Shown in pieces: positions 5,970-14,878 of a stretch of DNA of 17,654 nt. Position 1 is the first letter of the stretch. Each line of letters opens with the position of its first letter. The translations under genes and the position numbers were made by a program. The notes below the pieces were generated by a model that had not been told where the DNA came from, searched no databases, and was given only the letters and a program-made list of their open reading frames with translations. The DNA comes from Lysobacterales bacterium UBA5700 (GTDB lineage: Bacteria > Pseudomonadota > Gammaproteobacteria > Xanthomonadales > Xanthomonadaceae), in the NCBI GenBank assembly GCA_002420085.1, contig DIHI01000080.1, forward strand, positions 36,352 through 54,005, in the 5' to 3' direction.

Positions 5970-6452
5970 ATGCTCGCTCGCCTCGATCCCACCGACATCA
6001 CCCTGCTGACCGTCCTGCAAACCGAGGGTCGAATCAGCAATGCCGAACTTGCCGAACGGATCGGCCTGTCCGCCTCGGCCTGTCTGCGCCGCGTGCAGCG
6101 GCTGGAGTCGGAAGGCGTGATCGCCGGCTATGCCGCCCTGGTCGATGGCAAGCGCATCGGCCTCGGCCTGGAAGCCTTCGTCCGCGTGCAACTGCGCGAC
6201 CACAGCAGCGCCGTGGTCGATGCCTTCGTCGCGCGGGTCCAGCACTGGGAGGACGTGATCGCCTGCCATGCCCTGACCGGCGAGATGGACTACCTTCTGC
6301 ACGTGATGGTCGAAGACCTGGAGCACTTCTCGCGCTTCCTGCTCGATCGCCTGCTCAACGATGCCGGGGTCGCCGACGTCAACAGCAGCTTCGTGCTGCG
6401 TGAAATCAAGCCGCGCCGGGCACTGCCGCTCGCCCATCTGGCCGGCACCTGA
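5970..6452 (+). CDS. Lrp/AsnC-family transcriptional regulator
   Basis: A 160-aa regulator with the normal two-domain layout. An N-terminal helix-turn-helix (DPTDITLLTVLQTEGRISN, then LAERIGLSASACLRRVQRLE, about residues 7-46) is followed by a RAM ligand-binding domain (about 65-150) with the TGEMDYLLHVMVED signature. It probably controls phhA, from which it diverges, and itself, with an amino acid such as phenylalanine or tyrosine as effector; that is inference from position. The frame is open to 5931 with an upstream TTG, but the ATG at 5970 gives the usual family N-terminus. There is no Shine-Dalgarno sequence before it. A TAAAAT (5957-5962) lies just upstream, so a leaderless transcript is possible. 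Confidence 0.93.
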   Translation: MLARLDPTDITLLTVLQTEGRISNAELAERIGLSASACLRRVQRLESEGVIAGYAALVDGKRIGLGLEAFVRVQLRDHSSAVVDAFVARVQHWEDVIACHALTGEMDYLLHVMVEDLEHFSRFLLDRLLNDAGVADVNSSFVLREIKPRRALPLAHLAGT

Positions 6453-6458
6453 GCGGAG

Positions 6459-6489
6459 CCCGACGTCGGCTGCATCGGCCGACGTCGGG
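6459..6489. terminator. Perfect 12-bp stem-loop between convergent genes
   Basis: CCCGACGTCGGC (6459-6470) and GCCGACGTCGGG (6478-6489) pair perfectly around a 7-base loop, starting just after the Lrp-like stop codon and ending 14 bp before the convergent M28 peptidase stop. Position and stability suggest a two-way terminator. Neither side has a proper T-tract, so it may be an RNA 3'-end stabiliser rather than a classical intrinsic terminator. Confidence 0.55.
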
Positions 6490-6503
6490 AAAATGATCGG
6501 GTG

Positions 6504-8126
6504 TCAGCGCGACCCGAAGCGCTCGCCGAAGAAATCGCCCTTGTTCCAGCGTGGCGCCCGATCGCCATCGGCAACCCGGCGACCGATTGCCGCATTCAGT
6601 CGGGCCATCTGTGCCGCCGTCGGATAATCGATCGGCAGATCGATCTGGTCCGACGGCAGGTGGTAGTGCTGGGTCAGGAAGGTTTCCGCGCGGCCGGCAT
6701 GCTCGCCCTCGGCCGGCTCCAGGCCGCCCTTGAGATAGACCGCCGGGATGCCCTGGCGGATGAAGGCGAACTGATCGGAACGGATGAACACCACTTCTTC
6801 CGGACGCGGGTCGGGTGACAGGGTGATGCCCAGTGACTTCGCGGCCGCCTCGACATCGGCCTTGAGCGAACTGTGCTCGATCCCGATCGGCACCACATCC
6901 TGCTGCGGCCAGAGCAGGATCGGCATATCGATATTGATGTTGGCAACGATCGTGCCGGGCAGCCCCGGCTGGGCCGCGAAATGCTCGGCACCGAGCAGGC
7001 CCTTCTCCTCGGCGGTGACCGCCAGGAACACCTGCGAACGCCGTCCGTGCGGTTCCGCCTCGACCGCCTCGCGTGCCGCTTCGAGCAGGATCGCCACCCC
7101 GATCGCATTATCGAGCGCACCGTTGTGGATGCCGTCGCCCTCGATCTCGACACCGATTCCGACATGATCGAGATGCGCACTGTAGACCACGTGTTCACTA
7201 GCCAGACGCGGCTCGGCCCCAGCCAGGCGACCGGCGACATTGAAACTCTCGATCGGCTCCACCCGACTGCGTGAAGCCAGCACCAGACTGCCGGGCAGAT
7301 CGAATGCCTCCAGCGTCCCGGCTGCGGCCTGCTCAAGCACCGCCGGCAGTTCATGCCGCGCCCCCTCGAACAGGGTCGCCGCCGCCTCCAGGCTCATCCG
7401 CGCACTGGCGCGCAGACTCGGAAACTCATCGATCGGCTCACCCTCGGCATCGCGCAGCCGCATTCCGGGGCGATCCCAGTTGCGTGCCATCCGCTGCCAC
7501 GGATAACGTTCGGCCCGCGCCGGATCGGGCAGGGTCAACACCCCGACTGCACCGCGTTCGGCCAGCTCGCGCAGCTTTTCCCGCGCGGAGGAATGAAAGG
7601 CGCGCGGATCGGCCGGCAGGCTGGCCGGCGCACCACCCAGCAGCACCGCGATCTTGCCCTGCACATCCACACCCTGGAACTGATCGACCCCGAAATCCGG
7701 CGCATGCACCGCCTGACCGACGAACACCATCGGCGCCGCCACCGCGACCTCACTGCGACCGTAACTGATCCCCGGCAGGTACTCGTCCTGAAACCGGAAG
7801 GCACGGATCCGACCGTCACGGACCAACTCCAATCGCGCGCCCTCGCGCTCGATCCAGCCGCGCAGCAACGGCACCCGCTGGAGGTAGTCGCCGGCATCGC
7901 CGGCCGGCTCCAATCCGAGTGCCCGAAACCGTTCGGCAACGTAACGTGCCGCGATGTCGTAGCCGCGCGTCCCGGCCTCGCGGCCTTCCAGCAGATCATC
8001 AGCCAGAAACCGGACATCGGCCTCGATCCGGACCGCGCGCGGATCCGGCAGCACGGTCTCGGCATCGCGACCGCAACCCGCCACGGCAACGGCAACCGCA
8101 AGAACAACCCCAGGCAGCAGGCGCAT
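6504..8126 (-). CDS. M28-family zinc metallopeptidase, lipoprotein
   Basis: A 540-aa secreted lipoprotein (VAVAGC, Cys18). The catalytic M28 domain occupies the C-terminal half. Its likely di-zinc ligands and catalytic residues are H318 and D320 (YSAHLDHVG), D339 (GALDNAIGVA), E373-E374 (TAEEKGLLG), D400 (NINIDMP) and H487 or H489 (HYHLPSDQ). The region around residues 125-230 looks like an inserted PA (protease-associated) domain. Related enzymes are aminopeptidases or carboxypeptidases that trim peptides in the envelope. The start at 8126 is preceded by a G-rich ribosome site (GGGGGG, six bases away). It marks the left, core side of the accessory region. Exact peptide specificity cannot be read from sequence. 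Confidence 0.92.
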   Translation of the reverse strand: MRLLPGVVLAVAVAVAGCGRDAETVLPDPRAVRIEADVRFLADDLLEGREAGTRGYDIAARYVAERFRALGLEPAGDAGDYLQRVPLLRGWIEREGARLELVRDGRIRAFRFQDEYLPGISYGRSEVAVAAPMVFVGQAVHAPDFGVDQFQGVDVQGKIAVLLGGAPASLPADPRAFHSSAREKLRELAERGAVGVLTLPDPARAERYPWQRMARNWDRPGMRLRDAEGEPIDEFPSLRASARMSLEAAATLFEGARHELPAVLEQAAAGTLEAFDLPGSLVLASRSRVEPIESFNVAGRLAGAEPRLASEHVVYSAHLDHVGIGVEIEGDGIHNGALDNAIGVAILLEAAREAVEAEPHGRRSQVFLAVTAEEKGLLGAEHFAAQPGLPGTIVANINIDMPILLWPQQDVVPIGIEHSSLKADVEAAAKSLGITLSPDPRPEEVVFIRSDQFAFIRQGIPAVYLKGGLEPAEGEHAGRAETFLTQHYHLPSDQIDLPIDYPTAAQMARLNAAIGRRVADGDRAPRWNKGDFFGERFGSR

Positions 8127-8777: not shown

Positions 8778-8860
8778 TCAGCACCGATCGCCGGGCGACG
8801 CCATGCAACGATTCCACTGCATGCCGCGCCGGCGCCAGTGTTGATCGATCGCCTGGGTGA
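8519..8860 (+). pseudogene. Possible 5'-truncated gene remnant, unrecognised
   Basis: After a TAA at 8516-8518 the plus-strand frame stays open to the TGA at 8858-8860. The part from about 8534 to 8770 has strongly G/C-biased third positions, as in real genes of this window, and gives a protein-like stretch including LVIECNELWAFKNLL, VYNAKGVTTNC and CDILINPDWRAAL. There is no ATG or GTG at its left end, only a TTG at 8534, and its right end runs antisense through the last 80 bp of the RNA ligase gene, where the translation looks random. This suits the interrupted 3' part of an older gene. I do not recognise the family, and a chance open frame is a real alternative. Confidence 0.28.
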
Positions 8861-9479
8861 AATCCGGGCGAACCAGCTTGGCCCGTGCGATCAGGTGCTG
8901 GGAATCCTGCTTGCGTATCACCACACCCTCCATAGGCCCATCCCGGTAACGACTCCGACCCGTGTCGATCAGGTGTTCGAGTTGCGCACGGGTGTGGTGC
9001 CCGCGCCCGAGTTCCGGGACGGTTGGCACTCCGATCGCCGCCGCCCAGGCGTTGCGGCGCTCGCAACACCAGAACCGCCCGGTCGCATGCTCGTACATGT
9101 CGAATGCCAGCCACCAATCCGGCAAGGCCGTGTAGCCGAGCGAGTGCCGCGCCGCGCACCATTCTCCGAACACGATGAACCCCGGAGTCAATGCACCTCG
9201 CAAGACGGCCGCGTGTGCCTGTAACCAAGCGGTCAGGCGCGAGAACTGCCCGGCATAGGGCGGCCGTAGATATTGGCCGCGATTCTGCACGCGCAGTCCG
9301 CCATCTGCGGCCAGGGAGATACCCAGATTCGCGCCATCGAGCTTTTCCTCGACCACCACTTCGCCGGCAAGCAGTTCATCGGCCTCGCGTGGCGACAGCA
9401 GCTTGTCGTCGCGTGGCTCGCCAGTGCCGAGCCAGGCCAGATGTGGGGTATGCGGAAAACGAAAGAATGGCTCGTTCAT
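8778..9479 (-). CDS. RNA ligase family protein (Rnl2-like nucleotidyltransferase)
   Basis: A 233-aa ATP-dependent RNA ligase of the T4 Rnl2-like class. Nucleotidyltransferase motifs appear in order: motif I EEKLDGANLG (K46 is the AMP-accepting lysine), an Ia-like VQNRGQYL, motif III FGEW (E106), IIIa WWLAFDMYE (121-130 region), motif IV EGVVIRK (E184) and motif V ARAKLVRPDF (K201). The family seals 3'-OH/5'-phosphate RNA ends through ligase-AMP and RNA-AMP intermediates. Here only the catalytic domain is present, with no room for an Rnl2-type C-terminal domain. Its ATG overlaps the TGA of the PIN gene (ATGA at 9476-9479), so it is very probably translated with it as the last gene of a three-gene operon. 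That coupling suggests it repairs or reverses cuts made by the PIN protein, or acts on the same RNA. DNA nick sealing is a less likely alternative. Confidence 0.88.
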   Translation of the reverse strand: MNEPFFRFPHTPHLAWLGTGEPRDDKLLSPREADELLAGEVVVEEKLDGANLGISLAADGGLRVQNRGQYLRPPYAGQFSRLTAWLQAHAAVLRGALTPGFIVFGEWCAARHSLGYTALPDWWLAFDMYEHATGRFWCCERRNAWAAAIGVPTVPELGRGHHTRAQLEHLIDTGRSRYRDGPMEGVVIRKQDSQHLIARAKLVRPDFTQAIDQHWRRRGMQWNRCMASPGDRC

Positions 9480-10027
9480 GCCGAGGGTAATGGTGGCAGC
9501 GGCCGGTCCGGAAACTTTCTGGCGTAGACTTCAAGAAGGTCGTCGGGACAAAGAAATTTCACCCGGACTCCCAGTCTCTCCAGGTCTTGCCACCACCCCA
9601 ACCACTTGCTGTCCCCCGACTGCCAGACCGGTGGCTTGTCGGGGTGAGCGTTGGCGACCGCGACGAACTTGCGGTCCGGTGGATCGAACCGGTCCTGCAA
9701 GGCGGCATCTGGAAACTCGGCGAATCGATCTTCGTCGGTTGGCGTGATGCTGACGCGATGCACCCGCTTGCCATTGGTCTGATTCTGCAACAGCCACTTC
9801 AGGAACGCATCACCGACCCCTTTCGGCTGGTTGGGCCGGGTTTTATGGCTGTATTCCCCCAGAATCCGACTCGCGTCATCAAGCACCACCACGCCCGCTC
9901 GCTGACGCTCCAGCAGGCGCTTCACGCAGGTATCGCGACAGTTCTGTGAAATACCAGCATGGCTGCCATTGGCGATCAGCAGCACATTGGTGTCGATGAC
10001 CACCGCGTCCATGGCCGGTCTCGTCAT
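9476..10027 (-). CDS. PIN-domain ribonuclease
   Basis: A 183-aa protein with a PIN-like nuclease core. The likely acidic metal-binding set is D12 (VVIDTNVLL), E58 (SRILGEYS), D118 (PPDRKFVAVA) and D139 (QSGDSKWL), the order and spacing of a PIN active site. PIN enzymes are Mg/Mn-dependent and most cut RNA; VapC-type members cut tRNA or rRNA. It is longer than a typical VapC (about 130 aa) and has no antitoxin-like small gene beside it. Instead its ATG overlaps the TGA of the AAA ATPase (ATGA at 10024-10027) and its TGA overlaps the ATG of the RNA ligase. This suggests the ATPase is its activator or restraint, and the ligase its counterpart. The target RNA is unknown. Confidence 0.85.
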   Translation of the reverse strand: MTRPAMDAVVIDTNVLLIANGSHAGISQNCRDTCVKRLLERQRAGVVVLDDASRILGEYSHKTRPNQPKGVGDAFLKWLLQNQTNGKRVHRVSITPTDEDRFAEFPDAALQDRFDPPDRKFVAVANAHPDKPPVWQSGDSKWLGWWQDLERLGVRVKFLCPDDLLEVYARKFPDRPLPPLPSA

Positions 10028-11388
10028 GTCGACCCCGCTCGTCGACGCGATCCCGCCAGCACGCGCTCGGAAATATCACCCATTTCGTCGCCGAAGAAAT
10101 TTTCCGGCCAGTTTTCGATCTCGCCGAATTCGTCAAGTCGCAACTCTTCCAACTCGGCAGCAACGCCGTTGCGGTTGACGAAGTAGATCGCCACGTCACT
10201 GACTGTAATCACTCCTTCCGCAACCCGCCGCTGGAGCCGAGTGAGGAAATGTTCGGAATGGGTTTCGACGATCAACTGCGCCTTTCGGGGTTTACCCTCC
10301 TCGTAGGACTGAACGGCACTGATGAAAACATCGGCCAGGTTCGATTGCGCCATCGGGTGCAGGTGGATCTCCGGTTGCTCCATCCAGACCGTCGAGCCGG
10401 CAGGTGCATAGAACGCCTGCACCAGGGCCGGCAGCACTTGCGAAACACCGAAGCCGACATCAGTCAACCGCACCTCCTCGGCCTTTGGATGGGTTTTGAC
10501 CAGCACCTCATATTCCTTTCTGCCCTTGGCGACGGGCCGCACGACGAAGCTCTCGATGACGCCCAGATCCTTGAGCCAGCCGGCGATGAACGCATCAAAG
10601 CGGGTGATCCGCCGCTTGTGGCCACGGTTGAGCCTGCGGTTCTGTTCCGTTGCCGCCAGCAGCGCCGCCACGGCGAACCGGCCATCGGCACCGACGTCCG
10701 AGGGCGTGTCACCCGCCCAAGGGTAGATCCGCTTGGGCGGCGCGCGCAGTGGTCCAAGAAAATAGATGCCCTCCAGCATCTGTTCGGTACGCAAGGCAAA
10801 GTCGGCCAGGAAATCCGCATTCTGGTAGCGCAGCAAGGTACGGTCGGCGAAGCGGTAGAACTTCTCTGGCGGCTCGACCGGCCATTTTCGACCTTGCGCA
10901 TGAATCAGCCGGAGCGGCCTGCACTCAAGCGTCTCGGCGGTGTGCTTGATATCGAGTCGGGTCTCGCCTTGGTCGATCAGCTCGTAGCGGAACGCATCGG
11001 TGACCGGTTGCTCTTGTCTGTCGGCGCGGATCCCGCTGCTCAGGCGCAGTTCGTTACCCTGATAACTTTGCTCTCTGTTCAGCGGATCATTGACCGTCAG
11101 GCGCGGCTCGAGCCGCCAGCTCAAGGAAAACTCCAGTTTTCGACGCAGATCGTGACCGTGCAGGCAGTCGCGGAATGTTCCCAGATCGATTGCGGAGTTC
11201 TCGTCACCAAGGTGCAGTGCGCGTCGGCGATCGGCTAGCTGCGCGGTCTGCTTGAGCGCCATCAGCAGATGGCCGAGGCTCGACTTGCCGGAACTGTTGG
11301 TTCCAAAGATGACCGTCAGCGGCGCCAGACGCAGCAAGCCGGTGTCACGCCATGCCTTGAAGTTCCGGATTTGCAGTTCGGTCAGCAT
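10024..11388 (-). CDS. AAA/ABC-type ATPase of the OLD/DUF3696-like family
   Basis: A 454-aa ATPase with SMC/ABC-like organisation. It has an N-terminal strand LTELQIRNFKAW, Walker A GTNSSGKS (29-36), a middle segment YFLGPLRAPPKRIYPWAG (209-226) typical of the COG4938/DUF3696 group, an ABC signature-like VGFGVSQ (311-317), Walker B VWMEQPEIHLHP (334-345) and an H-loop VETHSEHF (H377). There is no Toprim domain, unlike OLD nucleases. Related ATPases act as the sensor or controller in defence systems such as Septu (PtuA) and PARIS (AriA), each with a separate effector. Here the effector candidate is the overlapping PIN gene. The frame is open upstream to 11682, but the extra residues look non-coding; the ATG at 11388 directly precedes the conserved first strand. 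A 16-bp palindrome lies just upstream. Defence function is inferred. Confidence 0.88.
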   Translation of the reverse strand: MLTELQIRNFKAWRDTGLLRLAPLTVIFGTNSSGKSSLGHLLMALKQTAQLADRRRALHLGDENSAIDLGTFRDCLHGHDLRRKLEFSLSWRLEPRLTVNDPLNREQSYQGNELRLSSGIRADRQEQPVTDAFRYELIDQGETRLDIKHTAETLECRPLRLIHAQGRKWPVEPPEKFYRFADRTLLRYQNADFLADFALRTEQMLEGIYFLGPLRAPPKRIYPWAGDTPSDVGADGRFAVAALLAATEQNRRLNRGHKRRITRFDAFIAGWLKDLGVIESFVVRPVAKGRKEYEVLVKTHPKAEEVRLTDVGFGVSQVLPALVQAFYAPAGSTVWMEQPEIHLHPMAQSNLADVFISAVQSYEEGKPRKAQLIVETHSEHFLTRLQRRVAEGVITVSDVAIYFVNRNGVAAELEELRLDEFGEIENWPENFFGDEMGDISERVLAGSRRRAGST

Positions 11389-11501: not shown

Positions 11502-11546
11502 GAACGTTGGCCGGCCGGGTGTTGGCCGGCCCGATGTTGGCCGACC
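11502..11546. repeat. Three 15-bp tandem repeats upstream of the ATPase operon
   Basis: Three consecutive 15-bp units (11502-11516, 11517-11531, 11532-11546) share the core GTTGGCCGGCC, with one base changed in the last unit (GTTGGCCGACC). The four bases before each core vary. The array lies about 115 bp upstream of the ATPase start. It may be an iteron-like regulator site or a slippage-prone repeat. Confidence 0.7.
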
Positions 11547-11715: not shown

Positions 11716-13155
11716 TCAGGTGTCGTCGTTGACTACGCTCGTGCCATTGAACAAGGCCCGACACTCGGCCGGCTGATCGCTGCGCGCTTCGGTCAAACGG
11801 ACGATGCCATCGAGGATGGCCTTGGTCATCTTGATGTCTTCCATGGCCTTATTGAATGTGCCGACAGCATTTTGTTCTGCGGCCTTCTTGTCACCCGCTG
11901 CTGGTTGACCCTCGATAGTCCCCTGGAGCGTCTGACCGGTCTCAAGCGCCGTTTCCATTTGTTGCTCCTGCGCTATTTCTAAGACTTTGAACCGCTCACG
12001 ATTGGTCTTGACCGTCCCGAAGATGTCCTGGGTTGCCTTGTCGGCGGCATCCTTCACTACCTGGACATCGGGTTGCTCATCAACCAGCGCCTTGTTGACC
12101 GCTAGGGCGATCAGGGTGGTGGCATTCTCCAGTGTTTCTGGCGCATGACGCACTGCGTCGTTGGTCGCGCGAAACCAGGTAGTGAACGATTCGATCGTCT
12201 GTTGGCTGGTCATGGCAACTTTTGCCACATTCGTGGTCAGCAAGCTTGCGATGATCGGATCGACTGTATCCTTCCCTGTGGGAGTACTGAGGGGCAATGC
12301 AGTCAGGGCAGGCACTCGATTATCGGAATCCGTTACAATCGTCTGTCGACCTTGCCCCTGTCCACCTTCAGTGTAAAGCTTCTCAAAGCTGCTATCACTG
12401 CGTAGATAAGGTGCATACATGTCGTAGTCCCCAGTCACATTTTCCTCGTGCGATTTACCAGATTCCATCAACCGCATCCGCTTGTATAGAATCTCGCGAA
12501 CCGACGTCGAAGGGTCTGTTTTTTCCGCTAATTTGTTCGGATGCAATTTATTATCTTTCAGACTGGTCGTGCGAGGATTATCGCCATCTGCAAGCGGGCG
12601 ATCCAACAAGGATTCGAATACCCGCTCGGCGAAGCCGTTCTCACCATCGCGCGCCAGGGCATCAGCGGTCATGATCGAGCATTCCAGAGCGCCGATCGCG
12701 TAGAAATACAGCCGATCGCGCGTTTCCAATGGCTGAAAGGCACGTATGCCTGCCACGGCACCTGCAGACAGGCCAAGCGCTGCAATCAGATCGTCCGACC
12801 CCCCGAACAAGCCGGCGGCTGATGCACCCAGGGCCAATATCTGTAGTCCCGCGCGCGTGCCCATTTCAAGATTCTTCATCTTGGTCAACTTCATTGCAAG
12901 CTGCTGTTGAACACAGCGTGTACGAATCCTCGCATTCAACAAGCGTTTTTCATAATCACCACTGTCAGAATCCAAATCTTTCAAAGCATTGCAGTTGGTA
13001 AAATCTGGCATCTGCACCAGACCTTGTTGCCCGCCTGTCTTAAGCGCGGTAATCTCGCGCACCGTCTGCGGAACCTCGATCGTCGGCGCTGTCGCACACC
13101 CTCCAAGCACCACCAAACCCATCACCGGAACGATGATTTTCACTACCTTGAGCAT
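11716..13155 (-). CDS. Large lipoprotein of unknown function
   Basis: A 479-aa protein I do not recognise. The N-terminus is a clear lipoprotein signal: basic MLKVVK, a hydrophobic stretch and the lipobox LGGC (Cys20). After it come a segment with two cysteines (NCNALKDLD and RTRCVQQQ), a short hydrophobic glycine/alanine-rich stretch (about 107-140: LQILALGASAAGLFGG and LSAGAVAGIRAF) that could insert in or lie on a membrane, and then a long polar, mostly helical-looking remainder. The start at 13155 is chosen for the lipobox and a GGAG eight bases upstream; the frame also has an ATG at 13212. Base composition is less G/C rich than in the flanking core genes. It lies 327 bp upstream of the ATPase operon on the same strand. 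It may be an envelope component linked to its neighbours or an unrelated island gene. Confidence 0.8.
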   Translation of the reverse strand: MLKVVKIIVPVMGLVVLGGCATAPTIEVPQTVREITALKTGGQQGLVQMPDFTNCNALKDLDSDSGDYEKRLLNARIRTRCVQQQLAMKLTKMKNLEMGTRAGLQILALGASAAGLFGGSDDLIAALGLSAGAVAGIRAFQPLETRDRLYFYAIGALECSIMTADALARDGENGFAERVFESLLDRPLADGDNPRTTSLKDNKLHPNKLAEKTDPSTSVREILYKRMRLMESGKSHEENVTGDYDMYAPYLRSDSSFEKLYTEGGQGQGRQTIVTDSDNRVPALTALPLSTPTGKDTVDPIIASLLTTNVAKVAMTSQQTIESFTTWFRATNDAVRHAPETLENATTLIALAVNKALVDEQPDVQVVKDAADKATQDIFGTVKTNRERFKVLEIAQEQQMETALETGQTLQGTIEGQPAAGDKKAAEQNAVGTFNKAMEDIKMTKAILDGIVRLTEARSDQPAECRALFNGTSVVNDDT

Positions 13156-13242
13156 GTCGTGTACTCCATTTGGTTTGTGACGAAATTCGTGACCTGCCGC
13201 ATCGTGTGTCATACACCGACAGGCATCCCTGGCAAACAGTCA

Positions 13243-13800: not shown

Positions 13801-13915
13801 GCTGGACACCCATCGGAAGCGTGTTGCTCAACGTCGATCGAGAATCACCCGGAGCGACCAAGCCCAAGCACCTTGCAGAATGACCGAGCGGACAGCTTCA
13901 TTTAGAAACACCGCC
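13801..13915. repeat. 115-bp direct repeat, copy 2, running into the membrane-protein gene
   Basis: This is the partner of 13474-13588. Its right end covers the stop codon (13898-13900) and the last five codons of the 326-aa membrane protein. Copy 1 has lost the in-frame stop at the matching position. Copy 1 may therefore be a duplicated downstream flank of this gene, left over from a duplication and deletion. Confidence 0.85.
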
Positions 13916-14878
13916 AGCAGATCGGGCGACTTGTTCCTCCGGTGCGTTTACCGAATCTTTCTTGAACCAGTGTTCGGGGAGGCTTGTCTCGAAGAACGAA
14001 GCGCTTTCAATTTCGTCAATCGGAATGACCTTGATCCACTCGTCTAGCTTGATGTCCATGAGCGAGATATGCTCGTTAATTTTGAGGAAGCCTTCGATGG
14101 CATTCGTTGCTTCGGACTTACGTCTTTGAAGCTCAGAACGAGTATGTTCTAATCCTGGGTAATTCATCAGGTCAGGGCGCTTCAGGTCTCCGATGATTCG
14201 ATCGAACTCCTCAAGCTCTTTCTCCGCAACCTTCAGGGCAATTTGTGCTTCCCAGAGCGCGATGATCGGATAGGGTGTGCGTTGGCCAGACAGTTCTAAT
14301 GAATCTTTGTCGCGATGCGATGAGAATATCGGCAGAAGCTCTACAAAAGGGCTATCATGGTCGATGTCTGCGGGTGTTTCAATGATTCGTCCACAGTAAA
14401 CCTTGCGAGATTTCAATGTAATAAGCACGAGCTTCTGTGAATCCACTGCGCGACGCAAAAGCCTTGCAAGCGAGCTGCCATTCTCAGCAATCAATTTACT
14501 GAACACCTTTACTCGGACATTGCCGACACTCTTTCTGTACCGAAACCGGTCGATCAGGTTTCCGAGCCGAGCAGAGAGCCACGCAAATGCGAAAAGAGCC
14601 ATCCACGCCGTTGGCCTGCCAGGGTGATCGGGAGAGATTCGCAAGTGATCGAACAGTCCAGGGTTGGCTTGGCATAAAGTGATGACGAGCCATTCAATGA
14701 AGCAGATAAACAACGTGTAAGCTGCAACTGCTGCAAGGCCCAAGCCCGCAGACATGAAAAACAGGCGCTGTCCTTCGGCGCGGAGGCTGAAATATCTCAG
14801 TCGGTAGTTGAACGCGCCGAACACATAGCCTGCGATAAGGATCGGCAGTAATGAAAATAGCGCTGCGCTGGGTGTCAT
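13898..14878 (-). CDS. Membrane protein of unknown function
   Basis: A 326-aa protein not recognised. The N-terminal 110 residues hold about three transmembrane segments (about 5-23 SLLPILIAGYVFGAF, 40-65 FMSAGLGLAAVAAYTLF and onward, and about 92-103 WMALFAFAWLSA). A cytoplasmic-looking C-terminal domain follows, with a strand-rich section LVLITLKSRKVYCGRIIE (about 150-167), reminiscent of a small beta-barrel fold, and a charged helical part (about 210-265: LKVAEKELEEFDRIIGDL and RSELQRRKSEATNAIEGF) that may form a coiled coil. The start at 14878 gives a hydrophobic N-terminus. It follows the 62-aa gene by 25 bp, so the two are probably co-transcribed. Composition is A/T-richer than the core genes (28 of 60 bases are G/C in 14041-14100), which suggests acquisition. 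Confidence 0.75.
   Translation of the reverse strand: MTPSAALFSLLPILIAGYVFGAFNYRLRYFSLRAEGQRLFFMSAGLGLAAVAAYTLFICFIEWLVITLCQANPGLFDHLRISPDHPGRPTAWMALFAFAWLSARLGNLIDRFRYRKSVGNVRVKVFSKLIAENGSSLARLLRRAVDSQKLVLITLKSRKVYCGRIIETPADIDHDSPFVELLPIFSSHRDKDSLELSGQRTPYPIIALWEAQIALKVAEKELEEFDRIIGDLKRPDLMNYPGLEHTRSELQRRKSEATNAIEGFLKINEHISLMDIKLDEWIKVIPIDEIESASFFETSLPEHWFKKDSVNAPEEQVARSAGGVSK

Follow-up and report, generated by a model that had tools for sequence, protein, structure and literature searches.

What an ATPase, a nuclease and an RNA ligase might do together is the question raised by three genes in a 17,654-nucleotide stretch of DNA from Lysobacterales bacterium UBA5700 (assembly GCA_002420085.1, contig DIHI01000080.1, positions 36,352 to 54,005 of the forward strand), which we refer to as the window. 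We found that the three genes form a conserved, tightly coupled unit, and on balance we favor the reading that they constitute a mobile anti-phage system in which the ATPase would gate the cutting and sealing of RNA. Their joint function and a role in defense are well supported by the sequence comparisons set out below, and we infer the RNA target, the trigger, the chemistry of the ends left by the PIN nuclease, the gating by the ATPase and the healing role of the ligase.

The Three Genes and Their Active Sites

The trio is encoded on the minus strand and comprises an ABC-type (OLD/RecF-like) ATPase with a C-terminal DUF3696 (nt. 10024–11388, 454 a.a), a PIN-fold nuclease (nt. 9476–10027, 183 a.a) and an Rnl2-like RNA ligase consisting of a nucleotidyltransferase domain and a short conserved tail (nt. 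8778–9479, 233 a.a). Both junctions are ATGA overlaps, in which the stop codon of the ATPase meets the start of the PIN gene (nt. 10024–10027) and the stop codon of the PIN gene meets the start of the ligase gene (nt. 9476–9479). A preliminary description of this DNA had reported these three genes, the two overlaps and a set of key residues, all of which were borne out by the open reading frames (ORFs) and the sequence. The ATPase carries K35 in its Walker A motif (GTNSSGKS, nt. 11281–11304, minus strand), E340 within WMEQPEIHLHP and H377 within ETHSEHF; the PIN protein carries D12, E58, D118 and D139; and the ligase carries E184, K201 and K46, the last, the nucleotidyl acceptor in this family, lying in motif I (KLDG, nt. 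9333–9344, minus strand).

In a Pfam scan, the ATPase matched AAA_15/AAA_21 and DUF3696, the ligase matched RNA_ligase (PF09414, 4e-35), the PIN protein had no match above the cut-off, and none of the three matched Toprim. The AlphaFold2 model of the PIN protein (pLDDT, the predicted local distance difference test, of 90.9) had mostly VapC/PIN proteins as its best structural matches, and the predicted ligase model was nearest to RNA ligases. Among the PADLOC models of defense genes, the PIN protein matched solely HEC-03A (E-value 8e-29) and the ATPase matched HEC-03B best (PDLC04148, E-value 1.1e-129); the ligase had no meaningful match there, only an unrelated model at 0.088.

Recurrence of the Trio

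Scanning genome contigs with a PIN alignment yielded 243 relatives, the best 80 of which were analyzed as PIN-anchored loci. The ATPase gene lies directly upstream of the PIN gene in all 80 of these, and the ligase gene directly downstream on the same strand in 75, such that the gene order of the trio is kept from locus to locus, a point that the preliminary description had wished to see checked. That description would have taken absence of the ligase from most ATPase-PIN pairs as evidence against its proposal; most pairs were found to have it, with a small two-gene branch (G196 and G016) and scattered loci lacking it.

We further assembled a pool of 100 loci, part of them picked via the ligase or the whole trio (L084 was omitted as a near-copy of L083), and a non-redundant set of 89 loci with PIN proteins less than 90% identical, counting stop-to-stop frames scored with profiles. 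The ATPase, by our own profiles, adjoins the PIN in 100/100 pooled loci, and the ligase is present in 80 of the 89 non-redundant loci, with none detected in 9. In this set, the active sites are nearly invariant among proteins with a residue at the column, both in the ATPase (K35 87/87, E340 88/88, H377 88/88) and in the PIN (D12 88/89, E58 89/89, D118 88/88, D139 87/88) and ligase (K46 80/80, E184 79/79, K201 79/79). A 4-nt overlap occurs at 58/89 ATPase/PIN and 42/80 PIN/ligase junctions, and the genes overlap or lie within 10 nt at 85/89 and 78/80, respectively; each gene was assigned the in-frame start lying closest to the upstream stop codon, which biases these distances toward short values.

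In a sample of 398 genomes of the phylum, a HEC-03A PIN was found in 13 (and in 0/14 control genomes), with the ligase present in 10 of these 13, the own genome counted. Searching the same sample from the ligase side at 1e-10 gave 16 matches, 12 of them above 200 bits (i.e., of the trio clade) and 4 of ~118–126 bits in longer frames. Eleven of the 12 clade ligases, comprising all the intact ones, follow an ATPase-PIN pair; the remaining one, in genome G003, is half a gene beside a short HNH-like ORF (L141:8955–9739), by appearance a decayed copy. Pairwise distances of the three proteins also correlate over 76 loci (0.78, 0.67 and 0.54, against at most 0.35 in Mantel shuffles; L039, L061, L071 and L075, being broken or cut, were left out). 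The ATPase family is broad by itself, with HEC-03B matches in 5/14 control genomes. Chance adjacency of the three genes is ruled out by the recurrence in the PIN-anchored loci and the 398-genome sample.

Fusions, Missing Ligases and Changing Partners

A query joining the PIN and ligase gave 7,998 scored candidates, and among the 120 listed, at least five single chains span both proteins (P0241–P0245; 397–413 a.a, 46–57% identity). Three of them (P0242, P0243 and P0245) align cleanly across PIN and ligase with both active sites intact; the PIN half of P0244 is scrambled, and the junction of P0241 is uncertain. Of 48 genomes from the class to which G097 belongs, 6 gave matches, none of them a fusion. 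These natural fusions indicate that nuclease and ligase are partners, and they strengthen the cooperation between the two that had been suggested earlier.

Fusions in some lineages would also suit a cut-and-rejoin toxin acting in a coupled manner on one RNA, in which the PIN removes or exchanges nucleotides (e.g., those of an anticodon loop) and the ligase is part of the weapon, sealing the ends into permanently altered RNAs that are beyond the reach of phage repair enzymes. That no intact clade ligase occurs apart from an ATPase-PIN pair in the 398 sampled genomes points the same way. However, the PIN keeps its catalytic residues in 8/9 non-redundant ligase-less loci (L110 has E for D139), so cutting alone seems sufficient, and a lone ligase on a phage contig (described below) fits healing better; we regard such a toxin as unlikely.

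Five of the ligase-less loci (L035, L059, L111, G196 and G016) have no ligase despite DNA being available behind the PIN, which disfavors the ligase as an obligate antitoxin. G196 and G016, which gave the highest HEC-03A scores of the 398-genome sample, have two-gene loci with a PIN of 160–162 a.a. As for the remaining four, L022 meets an integrase, the contig of L080 ends, and an HNH_2 gene takes the place of the ligase in L067 and L085. Because pairs occur without the ligase but no intact clade ligase occurs without the pair in the sampled cellular genomes, the ligase appears accessory to the nuclease, and the same asymmetry disfavors two alternatives, namely an obligate antitoxin and a repair system centered on the ligase.

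These observations bear on the idea that the ligase-fold protein is a regulator and not a strand joiner, controlling the PIN or the ATPase either by adenylyltransferase activity or as a structural antitoxin. The protein has only the nucleotidyltransferase domain, ending 32 residues beyond the motif V lysine and lacking the additional C-terminal domain that T4 Rnl2 has, and its conserved tail (~residues 205–233) was poorly modelled when predicted alone, as could be expected of a binding surface; REL1 ligases, moreover, contact RNA via a partner protein (PMC4599027). Nevertheless, every ligase with the column retains the nucleotidyltransferase motif residues tested, among them the motif V lysine, and ligase-less pairs persist with their PIN residues kept, such that no obligate antitoxin is in play. 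We consider a regulatory role doubtful.

In several divergent lineages, conservation relative to the window is highest for the ligase: it is 52–58% identical in G030, G061 and G081 (PIN 26–29%, ATPase 35–38%), 48% in a Rhodococcus plasmid trio (ATPase 43%, PIN 33%), and likewise foremost in Tistrella. It is not so in Pseudomonas L010 (68/60/55% for ATPase/PIN/ligase) and G185 (42/41/42%). Where it leads, this would agree with an RNA repair system in which the ATPase senses damage, the PIN trims ribotoxin-damaged ends to 3′-OH/5′-phosphate and the ligase seals them, and RNA repair complexes have precedent in bacteria (PMC4411300). In such a system the ligase should be the core, yet none was intact without ATPase-PIN in the 398 genomes, the ATPase-PIN pair occurs without ligase, and the nearest PIN structures are VapC toxins, leaving repair quite improbable.

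The PIN tree (L039 omitted) intermingles bacterial classes, which speaks against descent in host chromosomes alone. Over this tree the ligase-less loci are mostly scattered and slightly clustered, the nine rows giving 7 label changes against a shuffled mean of 8.7 (16/500 shuffles as low). L067 and the Acinetobacter plasmid L085 have a window-type PIN with a different ATPase, an HNH_2 nuclease in the ligase position (L067:8537–9292; L085:9538–10296) and restriction-modification-type genes nearby. A related HNH gene stands immediately behind the ligase in L002 (9270–10019), L040 (9198–9998), L041 (9223–9990), L055 (9223–10020) and L070, and the HNH endonuclease is thus a possible alternative or fourth module.

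Mobile and Defense Settings

On the IMG/VR contig L218, the trio lies directly between a phage integrase gene (int) and psu (PF07455, 4.9e-88); a primase-like gene is found close to it, and the arrangement is that of a P4-like satellite. It stands behind an integrase similar to that of L218 on contig L217, and beside portal and terminase genes on the prophage contig L211; all three trios retain the catalytic residues. The psu-int interval is a tested reservoir (hotspot) of antiviral systems (PMC9122126), and the whole words “RNA ligase” and “PIN” do not occur in the main text of that study. PIN relatives also occur on 12 plasmid records, 6 of them predicted conjugative; the 6 records inspected held 5 trios and 1 locus with HNH. 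As the trio is carried also by phages and phage satellites, it is probably antiviral.

Viral trios emerged via the ligase query; a first viral scan with the PIN query had confirmed 0/29 candidates, and annotated phages gave no PIN match and ligases only at 26–29% identity (5 records). Transfer RNA (tRNA) genes were found in 7/60 scanned sources and a transfer-messenger RNA gene in 2 more, without a consistent attachment site.

Excluding the window, the non-redundant loci have 163 direct neighbors, of which the 124 of 150–1600 a.a were scanned against PADLOC. At 1e-10, 59 upstream proteins matched 162 families and 65 downstream proteins 129, including restriction-modification, PglX/BrxH (BREX), DrmMI/DrmD/DrmA (DISARM), HmaA and LmuB (Lamassu). 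Since a single helicase or methylase matches many models, any one family was matched by at most 4 upstream and 6 downstream proteins. A control of 120 ORFs from 20 distant regions of six genomes gave 51 families; because families and not proteins were counted and the control was unmatched, this comparison is only supportive, and the satellite and prophage locations are the stronger evidence of a defense setting. The expectation of the preliminary description that the trio would adjoin known defense genes thus holds for some relatives, beside defense-model matches or in phage/satellite hotspots, the window itself not being among them. In the Pseudomonadaceae-like loci L046, L065, L069, L075, L076 and L077, the gene right behind the trio resembles F1-beta of an alternative ATP synthase, preceded in most by a permease-like gene (both by eye).

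An 80.6-kb IMG/VR contig, L212 (L216), with matches to portal, DnaB-like helicase, ribonucleotide reductase and Dda-like helicase, encodes a ligase of the trio clade with intact motifs (nt. 5998–6663, 265 bits, 44% identical); other phage ligases (L219–L239) by comparison scored 35–135 bits. HEC-03A and HEC-03B had no match anywhere on this record, a single and possibly incomplete contig. The lone phage ligase hints at a candidate counter-defense by RNA repair. A second set of RNA ligases (~102–135 bits) in G082, G196, G222, G334 and the phage loci L219–L228 forms an outgroup, with no ATPase-PIN on the scanned flanks of the phage loci.

Proposed Mechanism

As a family, PIN nucleases leave 3′-OH/5′-phosphate ends, which Rnl2-type ligases join directly. 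In the anti-phage system we favor, the ABC-type ATPase would hold and license the PIN ribonuclease, which upon a phage-linked trigger would cut structured host or phage RNA, most likely tRNA or ribosomal RNA (rRNA), leaving ends of this kind. The ligase, beside or fused to the PIN, would join them without further processing, healing leaky or transient cuts and allowing the cell to recover. With such ends, PIN and ligase would be chemically matched, and no end-healing enzyme would be needed. Among VapC-type PIN toxins, which are metal-dependent ribonucleases, several cut tRNA or rRNA (PMC5408214), and a 3′-OH end has been demonstrated for the analogous PARIS nuclease AriB (PMC12409363). Most likely the ligase heals rather than remodels RNA, and the cut-and-repair interpretation offered earlier is in this way partly supported. 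More tentatively, the trio may be a reversible immune system, an ATPase-switched cut-and-seal machine that halts phage translation and later restores the same RNA, from which some phages captured the ligase as counter-defense.

Relation to Known Systems

The window resembles the PADLOC candidate HEC-03 in its adjacent HEC-03A PIN and HEC-03B ATPase, which we infer from the model names to be its defining pair; it differs from such a two-gene composition in its third, conserved ligase gene. We found no function for HEC-03 in the literature, where one paper has the bare name (PMC13356809). Nor did our searches of the openly licensed PubMed Central literature turn up any account of the trio, its fusions, its place in satellites or the phage ligase, although a 2016 RNA-repair survey may mention them. 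Apparently, then, the trio with its ligase is undescribed, although widespread. The preliminary description knew it under no system name; its ATPase and PIN part, however, is already a candidate system.

Septu is defined by an HNH partner, PtuB, adjoining its ATPase; the partners in the window are instead a PIN and a ligase, with an HNH_2 protein in a minority of relatives. The window ATPase also matches NsnB, a Menshen component, at 3.4e-57, far weaker than HEC-03B, and neither the PIN nor the ligase matches any Nsn model, such that the NsnA/NsnC partners are lacking. The PIN shares its fold and acidic active site with VapBC toxins, but has no small VapB antitoxin gene beside it, its direct neighbors being the ATPase and the ligase. 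The ligase has the nucleotidyltransferase domain of Rnl2-type ligases with its motifs.

PARIS is known from P4 satellites. It likewise pairs an ABC ATPase (AriA) with a partner ribonuclease (AriB), whose 3′-OH ends are shown and whose 5′-phosphate ends are expected (PMC12409363). The effector in PARIS/OLD is a Toprim protein, whereas the window has a PIN, an added ligase and no Toprim match. In T4 PrrC versus Pnkp/Rnl1 and in bacterial Pnkp-Rnl-Hen1, defense RNA cutting and sealing by RNA ligase also meet (PMC12409363, PMC4411300), but there the cutting enzyme and the ligase come from opposing sides or from distinct systems; in the trio they share one operon or polypeptide, with no kinase/phosphatase gene. 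We place the trio among the ATPase and nuclease defenses, as a variant with a possibly new principle.

In HARP (PIN_5) and Rnl3, too, there is genetic linkage between a PIN nuclease and an RNA ligase that uses ATP (PMC12153264), a resemblance that would suggest a housekeeping pair for RNA maturation or circularization. However, the HARP family (PF09745) is unmatched by the window proteins, the PIN included, the Rnl3 ligase is PF18330/TIGR01209 where ours is PF09414 (17.7 bits to TIGR01209 against a cut-off of 136.9), and the HARP-Rnl3 pair is typically bidirectional with no ATPase in the reported linkage (PMC12153264). The trio is also patchy (13/398 genomes), is found on plasmids, a prophage and satellites, and is coupled to a defense-type ATPase, all of which makes a housekeeping role most improbable.

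Taxonomic Spread and Genomic Setting

Trios are spread over different classes of Pseudomonadota and also occur on a plasmid of an actinobacterium, in line with the distant recurrence anticipated earlier. In other phyla, no ligase above 200 bits was found in 201 genomes centered on a Chloroflexota bin, and among 146 centered on a cyanobacterial bin, solely the center bin itself had one. At an identity of 90% or more, the PIN of the “Chloroflexota” L029 falls into one group with the Piscinibacter L013 PIN, and such bins may be mis-binned. Across 5,426 genomes of Escherichia coli, searched with the trios of L218 and L217 as the only DNA queries (i.e., not the window trio), we obtained 0 and 3 partial ATPase matches; the one inspected (L240) is a different ATPase with a different neighbor.

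In the window, the trio has the look of an isolated insert amid housekeeping genes, the neighbor names having been assigned by eye except for the M28 peptidase. In five related genomes (L184, L189, L192, L195 and L199), the PheH-like, Lrp-like and M28 genes form an uninterrupted block, with no trio match on the stretch fetched from each, and a DNA search of 59 other relative genomes gave trio matches of useful length in G154 and G406 only. Upstream of the trio lie two minus-strand ORFs without a Pfam match (nt. 11716–13212 and 13898–14878), one lipoprotein-like and one membrane-like by eye, with no recurring association with the trio in other loci. A 15-base GC-rich repeat in two and a half copies (nt. 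11506–11543) precedes the ATPase gene. No Rfam family was matched within the window, and a promoter/terminator scan gave no signal exceeding shuffles.

Implications

Several phage defenses act by cleaving tRNA or rRNA, and ligases that repair RNA have been described in phages or in host systems distinct from the defense. The trio adds to an ATPase and nuclease a ligase unmatched by the PADLOC-DB of 2023, and would make the reversibility of RNA-cutting defenses a simple, testable question. Its PIN and ligase are an enzyme pair with possibly matched specificities, usable as RNA tools. If our reading is true, the trio would show how a cell survives its own RNA-cutting response.

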